NCBI GenBank assembly: GCA_025060295.1
Contig: JANXCH010000013.1
Span: 1-64,000, forward strand
DNA: 64,000 nucleotides
Direction of reading: 5' to 3'
Origin: Dehalococcoidia bacterium
GTDB taxonomy: Bacteria; Chloroflexota; Dehalococcoidia; Lucifugimonadales; HRBIN23
Part shown: positions 2,890 to 16,380 of the stretch, piece after piece
Numbering within the stretch: the stretch's first letter is position 1
Layout: every line of letters starts with the position of its first letter
The notes under the pieces: model-generated
Told to the model about the DNA's origin: nothing
The model's database searches: none
The model's input: the letters and a program-made list of their open reading frames with translations, nothing else
Position numbers and translations under genes: made by a program

Positions 2890-4710
2890 ATGAGCGGGCT
2901 GCAGTTTTTCTTGCGGATGTTCCTGGGCGCGGTGGCCGTCCTGGCCACCCTGCTCATTGCGGGGGCGTGGGTTTTCCTCCTGCGCAGTGCCCCGACGCAG
3001 ACCATCGTGCTGGATCGCTCCTGGATACGCCCCCGGGCGTCGTATGACACCTCCCGCTCCTTCGCCGACCTGGTGCGCCCCCACTTCTACGCCCGCACCC
3101 CCCGCGGGGAGTGGCGGGAGATAGAAGGAGAGCCGGAGCGCATCGTGGAACACGACGGCCAGGTGATGGTGCGCCTGCGGAACGGGCAGGAGACGCTATA
3201 TGTGAGCCTGCTAGCCCTGGACAGCCAGGAGTGGGGGGAGCATCCCGTGCACAAGGTCTACCGCCTGCAGGGGATGGGCATCCCGGTGGAACCTGCTCTG
3301 GCCCAGCGCCTGCGGACGGAGCCTTTCCCCCACCACCTCTTCCCCCGCCTACGTTTCGAGTATCTCCCCGGCAAAGAAGCGGAAGGGGTTATCGCCGAGG
3401 TTTTCCCCGACGGCACCTTTCTGGTCATCCCCTTTCGCATGCCCCCCGAGTGGCAGGGGGGTGGGAAGGGGTTGACCACCCCCTCCCATCTCCATGTGGA
3501 CCCCCGCGCCCTGATCACCCGCACCTCCCGCCTGGCCCAGGAGTGGGAGCGGGAGATACGAGCCTTGCCCTTTGACGACCAACGCTATCCCCCCGCACCC
3601 CTGGCCCGTAAGGACTGCCAGGTGTACCAGGAGGCTGTGCAGAGCCCCGCCTACCGGGGCATCCTGGCCCAGGTGGGCTACCGCTTCACCCCCGCCCATG
3701 TGTGGCGGGGGCGGGAGGCGTCCACCTTCGCCGACCGCCTGGCCCTGCTGGTGTGGGAGGGGGCCGGCGCGGGGAAACAGTACTTCGGCATGGAGGGGGA
3801 GTGGATCGGCGCCCGCCTGCGGGAGATGGGGGGGCCGGCCCAGGAGTGCGACGCCGCAGGAGCCATTCGCCCCTTCCCCCCGGCATGGCGCACCCCCCAG
3901 CAGGACACCTACATCGTCCTGCGGAGGTCTTTAGAGCCCGATAGGAAACGGCGGTTCCGTGTCGTCGCCCTCACCCAGGATGGGATGGGAAGGGATGCTC
4001 TCATCCTCCCTGGGATGCCCCTGTTGGTTTTTCCGCATCCTGCTGCGCCCCCGTGGTGGGTGGTCAGCAACGAGGGGTGGGACGGCCCCGCCCCGGGGAA
4101 GGCCCCCGACCCCCGCTGGTCCTCCCTGTATCTGATGCACGGCAACGACCCCTCCCGCTATGTGCTGGTGGACTTCCCCTTCGGGCGCTATGGGGTAACC
4201 CCACGCACCGAGACGCGCCGTCTGCTGGCGTCGTCGGGCATCGTTCTGCGCGAGCAGGGGATGCTCCTGGCATCTCTGTATGGCTTTACCGACGAAGGGG
4301 GTGGGCTGTGGCTTCTGCCCCTCCCCACACCCACCTCACCCCCCAACCCCTCCGCCTTCACCTACCTCCAGCCTTGGGACCACTCTCTCACCCTTTTGCC
4401 CCTGGATTATCGGCCATCTCCCCCGACCCTGACCCTTCTGCTGACGGCCAAAGAGGTACGGGACGATTTCGCCATGACGGCTTATGTGGTGCGCATCGCT
4501 TTGACAGAGGGCGGGGGGCAGGTGGAGAGACGGGAGCGCCTGATGCGCATGGTGGGATGGAACCCCGTGCCCTTCGCCCTCCACCAGGTTGGGGAGGGGC
4601 GGGTCATGGTCTTCCTGCAGACCCATTACGACTACTACACCTCCCTTCTGCCCCGGGCGAAGGGGGTTTACCGCGTAGTGGTGGACACCCACCCTACGCA
4701 ACCGCCGTAA
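2890..4710 (+). CDS. Unknown membrane-anchored protein
   Basis: 606 residues. The N-terminal 30 residues hold one transmembrane segment (about 8-30), likely a signal anchor. The remainder is soluble, rich in Pro, Arg and aromatic residues, and predicted to lie outside the membrane. I recognise no family. The segment at about 70-110 looks beta-rich, and the C-terminal half has WD/Tyr-rich stretches that could be propeller-like, but this is only an impression. A TACAAT hexamer at 2824-2829 could be its promoter -10, about 60 nt upstream. It diverges from the metallopeptidase gene, which might indicate related envelope roles. Confidence 0.6.
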   Translation: MSGLQFFLRMFLGAVAVLATLLIAGAWVFLLRSAPTQTIVLDRSWIRPRASYDTSRSFADLVRPHFYARTPRGEWREIEGEPERIVEHDGQVMVRLRNGQETLYVSLLALDSQEWGEHPVHKVYRLQGMGIPVEPALAQRLRTEPFPHHLFPRLRFEYLPGKEAEGVIAEVFPDGTFLVIPFRMPPEWQGGGKGLTTPSHLHVDPRALITRTSRLAQEWEREIRALPFDDQRYPPAPLARKDCQVYQEAVQSPAYRGILAQVGYRFTPAHVWRGREASTFADRLALLVWEGAGAGKQYFGMEGEWIGARLREMGGPAQECDAAGAIRPFPPAWRTPQQDTYIVLRRSLEPDRKRRFRVVALTQDGMGRDALILPGMPLLVFPHPAAPPWWVVSNEGWDGPAPGKAPDPRWSSLYLMHGNDPSRYVLVDFPFGRYGVTPRTETRRLLASSGIVLREQGMLLASLYGFTDEGGGLWLLPLPTPTSPPNPSAFTYLQPWDHSLTLLPLDYRPSPPTLTLLLTAKEVRDDFAMTAYVVRIALTEGGGQVERRERLMRMVGWNPVPFALHQVGEGRVMVFLQTHYDYYTSLLPRAKGVYRVVVDTHPTQPP

Positions 4711-13081: not shown

Positions 13082-13389
13082 GGCATAAGAGCCACAAAGC
13101 CCATGGTAACAGTGTGCAAATTGGAGAGACGGACGAGGATAGGCTAGACCAAACCTGTGGTGAGGATGTGTGGAATGGGGATAGCCGGCTTGCAAGGAGG
13201 GTGTCTAGATAGACGAAGGCCAGGGGAAAACGGCTTCCAAGGCTGGAGGTTAGACGAGCGATGATGCGTGGGGATATCCACAGGTGCAGGGAGTTTTCCA
13301 CAGGAGAGGGGCGATTTTTCCCCATGCGTAGATCGCCCGTGTGTGGTATGCTAGCAGAGTTGGAACATATCGCTGACTGGAGGAGAGCG
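13082..13389. other. Intergenic region with two DnaA-box-like sites
   Basis: 308 bases between divergent obg and the lipoprotein gene. ATATCCACA (13274-13282) and TTTTCCACA (13294-13302) each differ by one base from the DnaA consensus TTATCCACA. They are in the same orientation and 20 bp apart. TATGCT at 13348-13353 is a possible -10 for the lipoprotein. I see no open frame with coding character. Two boxes without an AT-rich unwinding region are not enough to call an origin. Confidence 0.35.
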
Positions 13390-14088
13390 ATGCGCTGGCT
13401 CGTTGGTATTGTGATCCTAGTCGGGATGCTAGTGATGGGGGCGTGCACTCAGCCGACGCCCACCCCGACACCCACCCCAGTTCCTCCCACGCCAACACCG
13501 ACCCCCATTCCGCCTACTCCGACGCCCACGCCGACACCCACCCCCACTCCCGCGCCGACTCCGACGCCTACACCCACTCCTACTCCCACCCCGACTCCTA
13601 CTCCCGTGCCGACGCCGACCCCGACCCCGACACCGACCCCCACTCCGACACCTGTGCCTACCCCCACTCCGACGCCCACGCCGACACCTACCCCCACTCC
13701 CGCGCCGACTCCGACGCCTACGCCCACCCCAACGCCCACGCCGGTGGTCCCGCCCGTTACGGGCACCCTGTCGGATAACGCCGTGCGCTGGCTGAACTGG
13801 GCGGCCCTCCTGTTCCAAGAGGCGCCCCTGCGGACGGTGCTCCAGCCCGAGTCCCTGCGGGAGGAGGGCGGGTTCCTGACCCTGGTGGCCCTCACGGACG
13901 CCCGTGTGCCCCAGGCCCAGGTGGTGAGCGGGCTGAACACCATCCTCACCGGGCGGGGCGAAAGCCCCACCACCACTGCCGACAGCGTGTCGGTAGCCCG
14001 CTGGGGCCTGACCATCAGCGTGGCCCCCGTGGCGGGCACCCAGGTGCGCGTCACGGTGCGGGTGAGCACCGCTGCGCCTCCGCCCTAG
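13390..14088 (+). CDS. Lipoprotein with long Pro-Thr repeat linker
   Basis: 232 residues from ATG 13390, preceded by GGAGGAGAG. The signal peptide [19 protein letters not shown] ends in a lipobox, so the mature protein is lipid-anchored at Cys19. Residues 20-118 are almost pure Pro-Thr with occasional Val, Ala and Ile, an extended stalk. Residues 120-232 form a compact domain starting [20 protein letters not shown], of no family I recognise. The composition suggests a surface protein carried on a spacer. A strong bidirectional terminator follows. Confidence 0.75.
13447..13745 (+). repeat. Low-complexity Pro-Thr-encoding repeat
   Basis: CCNACN-type hexamer repeats encode the lipoprotein stalk. 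On top of the short period, a segment of about 57 bp starting at 13521 recurs at 13671 with about two mismatches, an offset of exactly 150 bp (50 codons). This suggests growth by unequal exchange. The opposite strand shows a spurious Gly-Val frame. Confidence 0.85.
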
Positions 14089-15295: not shown

Positions 15296-15682
15296 CTAGG
15301 GGGGCGAACGGCGGCGAGCCAGTTCCTGGATAAGCGCCTGCACCGCCCGATAAGCGTAGGGGATGTAATCGGCGGGGGGGAGGTCCAGGGGCTTGAACTC
15401 CTCCACCTGGTCTATAGGCATGATGTCCCCCGGCCCGGGCATCAGGCGGAGCACTAATTCATACAGTTCCCCGTCGGGGCAGACCACCACGCATCCCCGC
15501 TCGGGGTCGGCCTTGCCCCCCTCCACTTCCAGGGCTTGAAGGGTGGCCATGCCTAAAAAGGAGGGGAAAGGCTCGAGGGCGCTGGCCACCTCCTTCACCA
15601 AACGGGCCAGTTCCTGGGCGGTGCGCTGGACCAGGCTGTCGGCGTAAGCCTGGGTGGCAAGGGGGTCTACCGGCGGGGCCAT
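15296..15682 (-). CDS. Unknown protein, 128 residues
   Basis: No family recognised. It is an acidic, soluble protein with a helical N-terminus (LVQRTAQELARLVKEVASAL), a central strand-rich part (GCVVVCPDGELYELVLRLMP) and a C-terminal helix ending QELARRRSPP. The start lies 2 nt after the stop of the probable selenoprotein, and the end is 18 nt before the phosphonoacetate-hydrolase-like gene. It is therefore almost certainly co-transcribed with both. It might act with the oxidoreductase, but nothing in the sequence shows this. Confidence 0.65.
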   Translation of the reverse strand: MAPPVDPLATQAYADSLVQRTAQELARLVKEVASALEPFPSFLGMATLQALEVEGGKADPERGCVVVCPDGELYELVLRLMPGPGDIMPIDQVEEFKPLDLPPADYIPYAYRAVQALIQELARRRSPP

Positions 15683-15684
15683 GG

Positions 15685-16365
15685 CTACCCCCCGTGCACG
15701 GCGCGCAGCAGGGCATCGATGAAACGGGGCTCGGGCACCGCCCCCTCTAGACTTACGGTCTCGTTGATGATGGTCTTGGGCACCCCGTGCACATGGTAGC
15801 GCTCCGCCAGGTAGGGGAACTCCAGCACCTCCACCACATCGGCGGTCACCTGGGCGCTCTCCTGGGCGACTTGGTAGGCCAGCCTGGCCATAGCGGGGCA
15901 GTAGGGTCAGGTGGGTGTAACCATGACCTGGATATGCACAGGTTTGGTCAGGGTGGCGACCTTGCCCCGGCTGGCGGGCGACAGGCGCGTGGTGCCTTTA
16001 GAGAGGTCCACGATGGTCTCCACCAAGGCGGCGAACTCGTAGCCGGCGGGGACGCCGAAGTAGCGCAGGAGCCCCTTGCTGGAAGGGGAGTGGAGCACCA
16101 CAACGGGGAGGCGATTGTCCAGGCGATAGTGCTGGGCCTCGCTGGCGCTGGAGACCATGTCCTTCACCTCCAGGCGCACCTTGTCGTGGAGGCTGGCCAG
16201 TTCCCCCAGCACCTCCTCCGTCTCACGGCAGGTGGCGCAAGGGGGGATGGGCGTCTCCAGGGGCGATTCCCGTTGGGTGAACAGGGTCAGGGTAACAGGA
16301 TCGCGCAGGTTGCGGGAGAAGAGACCCTGCAGGTAGGAGCGGTCGGCGTCACGCAGGATGGGCAT
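15685..16365 (-). CDS. Protein disulfide oxidoreductase (PDO/glutaredoxin-like, two thioredoxin folds) with in-frame UGA, probable selenoprotein
   Basis: Reading through one TGA (15907-15909) gives 226 residues, the normal size of the archaeal/thermophile PDO family. The ATG at 16365 has GGAGG five bases ahead. The N-terminal fold holds CATC (43-46). The C-terminal fold begins HIQVMVTPT, then TGA, then PYCPAMARLAYQ. Relatives read CPYC here, so the TGA sits exactly at the first, nucleophilic cysteine (position 153) and gives a UPYC site. Homology resumes at once and continues to a cis-Pro segment HGVPKTIINE and a normal C-terminus. A hairpin follows the UGA (see 15877-15906). These enzymes reduce or form disulfides in the cytoplasm. 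The alternatives are a nonsense mutation or a sequencing error. No sel genes are in the window. Confidence 0.8.
15877..15906 (-). promoter_or_regulatory. Candidate bacterial SECIS hairpin
   Basis: Starting 17 nt after the UGA, the mRNA reads GGCCA-GGC-UGGCC: a perfect 5-bp stem (15885-15889 with 15877-15881) and a 3-nt loop that begins with G. The loop lies 22 nt from the UGA. This fits the loose bacterial rule of a stem-loop 16-37 nt downstream with a G in the first two loop bases. It is shorter than the E. coli fdhF element, so only comparison or experiment can confirm it. Confidence 0.5.
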
Positions 16366-16380
16366 AGCCACCTCCGTCTA

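Follow-up and report, generated by a model that had tools for sequence, protein, structure and literature searches.

Selenocysteine (Sec)-containing members of the protein disulfide oxidoreductase (PDO) family were reported in 2006 from two bacteria (PMC1794560), and a glutaredoxin-like TGA cluster naming CHY_0740 followed in 2007 (PMC1914089). The family was tabulated in 2022 as TIGR02187 with a UxxC motif (PMC9312934), four Asgard sequences of it were described in 2024 (PMC11227280), and in 2026 it was listed as "predicted with high confidence" (PMC13188914). A literature search found no dedicated report on a Sec PDO in Chloroflexota. Here, we describe such a gene in the window, a stretch of 64,000 nucleotides from a Dehalococcoidia contig, together with its relatives across the class and beyond.

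The initial annotation had drawn attention to a protein of 226 residues whose reading frame is interrupted by a TGA at the first cysteine of the C-terminal CxxC motif, with the N-terminal CATC site intact. The coordinates given for the gene, which lies on the minus strand, were right (Table 1), and both the position of the TGA (T-U153-P-Y-C) and the presence of C43 and C46 were confirmed. With the TGA translated as Sec, the protein reads MPILRDADRS...PPCATC...VMVTPT-U-PYCPAMARLAY..., and in the alignment of homologs (alignment A1) the column of position 153 holds Cys or Sec. Read with the standard code, the sequence falls into two open reading frames, of 154 and 68 codons. Standard gene calling would break the gene in two at this point, and the reading given here corrects the annotation. 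A search of the window for further sites at which read-through of a TGA would give CxxU or UxxC spacing yielded 20 places, and by eye a known redox motif is seen only around the PDO site.

Table 1. Features of the PDO gene in the window (coordinates of the forward strand)
Feature	Position	Strand	Remark
PDO gene, read as Sec-containing	15685-16365	-	read-through translation of 226 residues, U153 included; ends at TAG
Start codon ATG	16363-16365	-	
Stop codon TAG	15685-15687	-	
TGA codon 153, read as Sec153; first position of C-terminal U-P-Y-C	15907-15909	-	
C156 of the UPYC motif, predicted resolving Cys	15898-15900	-	column invariant in alignment A1
N-terminal CATC motif (C43-C46)	16228-16239	-	both Cys columns invariant in alignment A1
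Probable ribosome-binding site GGAGG	16371-16375	-	read from sequence; 5 nt 5' of ATG
Predicted bSECIS apical hairpin GGCCA-GGC-TGGCC	15877-15889	-	17 nt past UGA; 5 bp, loop GGC

The family assignment of the protein is provided by a profile search, in which TIGR02187 (PDO), a model that carries the NCBI name PDO_seleno_TRX, scored 230.7 bits (cut-off 185) over residues 6-221 of 226. An AlphaFold2 model, computed for the window protein together with 16 relatives, consists of two tandem thioredoxin folds (mean pLDDT 93), each half with a redox site of the CxxC type (CATC and UPYC). The PDB entry nearest to this model is the Pyrococcus furiosus PDO 1a8l (E 1.1e-22, TM 0.88), and U153 follows strand 143-149 and precedes helix 156-169, where a thioredoxin fold usually has its active site. 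Both 1a8l and 1j08 align with the protein almost end to end, with VTPTCPYCP in these entries and VTPTUPYCP here. Full-length alignment to relatives as well as to PDB entries bears out the initial claim that the protein is homologous in one and the same frame before and after the TGA.

The host genome (1.6 Mb in 23 contigs, 95.7% complete) holds all of the sel genes whose presence had been proposed as a check of the Sec reading: tRNA-Sec (selC) with the anticodon UCA, selA, selB as an open frame of 656 codons, and selD over the cut-off. The last of these has an in-frame TGA of its own, in HCAGUAAKFSPE (L041, G000:C23:54384-55304), and SelD of the host is predicted to be itself a selenoprotein. 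Among the 24 genomes with a verified TGA in the PDO gene, selA was found over the cut-off in 20 and as a partial match in 1; the 3 that gave none are 71-74% complete. Two genomes of the same order, G043 and G032 (91% and 97% complete), have neither selA nor selB over the cut-off, and their PDO is the Cys form.

Within the same order, the PDO gene has TGA at the site in 16 of 59 genomes (18 loci), TGC or TGT in 8, and a Ser codon in 1, and one further match is a fragment. When the set is widened to 126 non-redundant loci, Sec and Cys alternate in this column, the question that had been raised for the homologs, with TGA in 26 loci, TGC or TGT in 99, and Ser in 1; in all 26 TGA loci, the frame is open on both sides of the TGA and the length is normal. 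The archaeal and other-phylum homologs retrieved all have Cys, but one of the two search patterns required Cys, and this biased scan is therefore mute on the frequency of Sec outside the class. On a tree computed with the site masked, parsimony counts 13 changes between Sec and Cys, and well-supported branches require at least 5 of them; the Cys form of G043 is sister to the Sec form of G006. The host genome has a second Sec-PDO paralog (L035, G000:C4:48060-48710), at a contig end and with the same TGA codon, which falls together with the PDO of G001, a genome of the same genus; the window copy has another place in the tree and is the more diverged of the two, with a long end branch of 1.53.

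Some single loci of this set deserve mention in their own right. The Ser codon (TCG) at the Sec/Cys position belongs to L020 in G016, a genome that has selA, and this sequence is sister to the Sec form of G051. At L036, a TPP riboswitch (2965-3079) lies near one of the two nearly identical Sec-PDO copies of G005. The Cys-type PDO gene L031 (G056:C1:7701-8339), from a genome without selA over the cut-off, has an in-frame TAG at codon 8, possibly due to gene decay, a start codon further downstream, or faulty assembly; lying away from the Sec site, this TAG is no case of Sec encoded by UAG.

The hairpin downstream of the UGA was found exactly as the initial annotation had claimed (17 nt after the UGA, 5 bp, GGC loop). 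To judge it against the coding constraint, synonymous codons were redrawn over the 45 nt past the site according to each gene's own codon usage, and 5-bp hairpins at +17 were counted. Such a hairpin is present in 18 of the 26 TGA genes against 1.07 expected from the synonymous re-draws, an excess of ~17-fold that, like the other hairpin numbers, is inflated by kinship among the sequences, which are not independent. In contrast, the hairpin is present in 2 of the 23 genes of this class that have Cys (or Ser) at the site (1.05 expected) and in 6 of the 77 Cys genes from elsewhere (2.3 expected). For the Arg within the hairpin, 18 of the 26 TGA genes use AGG, against 4.8 expected, and the Cys genes of the class mostly use CGC. 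Over the 26 TGA rows, 91.5% of the cells pair in the hairpin, and the outer pair is changed from G-C to C-G in 3 of them. The contrast between Sec and Cys genes is clear, under much the same protein constraint, and the hairpin of the window gene is more than chance; it is, as far as sequence can tell, the expected bSECIS, close behind the UGA and with G in the apical loop.

The conservation of the hairpin is also partly driven by the amino acids, because some Cys homologs keep part of it. The Cys-form PDO of G043 retains a hairpin-like remnant, TGCCAGGCTGGTG, and SECIS-like remnants in Cys genes descended from Sec genes have been described earlier (PMC1794560). Taken over all 45 nt past the site, folding energy did not set Sec genes apart from Cys genes (Mann-Whitney p 0.36): relative to the synonymous re-draws, it was no lower in Sec genes than in Cys genes. 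Only the local hairpin is distinctive. A search of seven PDO loci against Rfam at gathering thresholds gave no match to a SECIS family, which says nothing for or against the hairpin.

Other readings of the TGA need to be weighed against this evidence. As a nonsense mutation, it would leave a pseudogene or a truncated protein, and it is true that the first half of the gene is open alone and that the window copy sits on a long branch. However, TGA recurs at the same catalytic codon in the 26 loci, which come from many families of the class and have intact frames on both sides, and a nonsense mutation is strongly disfavored because of this recurrence in one column; the complete sel machinery of the host, its paralog with the same TGA, and the maintained hairpin likewise speak against it, and we consider it very improbable. 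A sequencing or assembly error that turned TGC or TGT into TGA is a thought that the draft state of the genome (23 contigs) invites, but the same TGA recurs in more than 20 further assemblies and in the paralog of the host, which leaves such an error an even smaller chance. Equally slight is the chance that TGA has been reassigned genome-wide to a sense codon (e.g., Trp or Cys) and not recoded locally as Sec: no point in its favor was found, an internal TGA stands together with a terminal TGA stop in the PDO gene of several relatives (L017, L019, L022, L024, L025, and L027), and the host has selA, selB, selC, and selD.

The internal stop codon of the PDO gene thus almost certainly encodes selenocysteine at the active site, a reading supported by the sel genes, the Sec/Cys column, and a hairpin kept beyond the needs of the protein. 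Taken as a whole, we are highly confident that the gene encodes a PDO of two thioredoxin folds with a Sec-Pro-Tyr-Cys site in its C-terminal half, Sec being inserted at the UGA by way of SelB and the hairpin. This would involve the following: (i) given the machinery genes and the hairpin observed, SelB with Sec-tRNA-Sec would bind the hairpin ~17 nt past the UGA, and Sec would be inserted there in place of termination; (ii) as a member of its family, the protein would carry out thiol/selenol-disulfide exchange, in which the selenolate of U153 would attack substrate disulfides, the selenenylsulfide would be resolved by C156, and electrons would be returned by the N-terminal CATC site or by a thioredoxin-reductase-type flavoenzyme. 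Nothing clear about function can be read from the neighboring genes, which encode a Trans_reg_C-domain protein, a 128-residue protein, a phosphodiesterase-family protein, and transketolase halves. The 128-residue open reading frame (15296-15682, minus strand) lies immediately 3' of the PDO gene and has no Pfam match, and another (13261-14088, plus strand) has a long Pro-Thr dipeptide repeat (PTPTPTP...) behind an apparent lipoprotein-like start.

For the order, we lean towards a picture in which Sec prevails at the catalytic site of PDO (16 of the 25 genomes in which the site can be read), with repeated exchange between Sec and Cys, at least one loss of Sec together with its machinery (G043), and replacement by Ser (G016). 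If this is true, the order would be a good natural system in which to study why one residue keeps or loses Sec.

It is well supported that the window PDO adds one member to a family of selenoproteins listed since 2006 and is no new kind of protein, because Sec PDOs were reported in that year and have been tabulated since, and the family model itself is named PDO_seleno_TRX. The principles of selenoproteins are unchanged by it. New here are the frequency of Sec PDOs in the class Dehalococcoidia and the evidence of repeated exchange between Sec and Cys; a selenoprotein family known in 2006 from two bacteria is thereby shown to be common in a mostly uncultured class of Chloroflexota. The known Sec PDOs (PMC1794560, PMC9312934, and PMC13188914) share the family, with TIGR02187 above the cut-off, and the UxxC motif; they come from other phyla and are likened here by family and motif listing. 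The PDOs of P. furiosus (1a8l) and P. horikoshii (1j08) have the same length, two thioredoxin folds, two sites of the CxxC type, and the stretch TPT(C/U)PYCP, but they have Cys where the window PDO has Sec, and CQYC in place of CATC in the N-terminal half. The N-terminal domain of AhpF (5h29 and 1zyn) has the same double thioredoxin fold (TM 0.78-0.82 by query length); AhpF also has a flavoprotein part, whereas the window PDO stands alone without it. Bacterial Sec glutaredoxin and Sec thioredoxin, listed in PMC13188914, likewise place a UxxC site in a thioredoxin fold but belong to families (PF00462 and PF00085) other than that of the window PDO.
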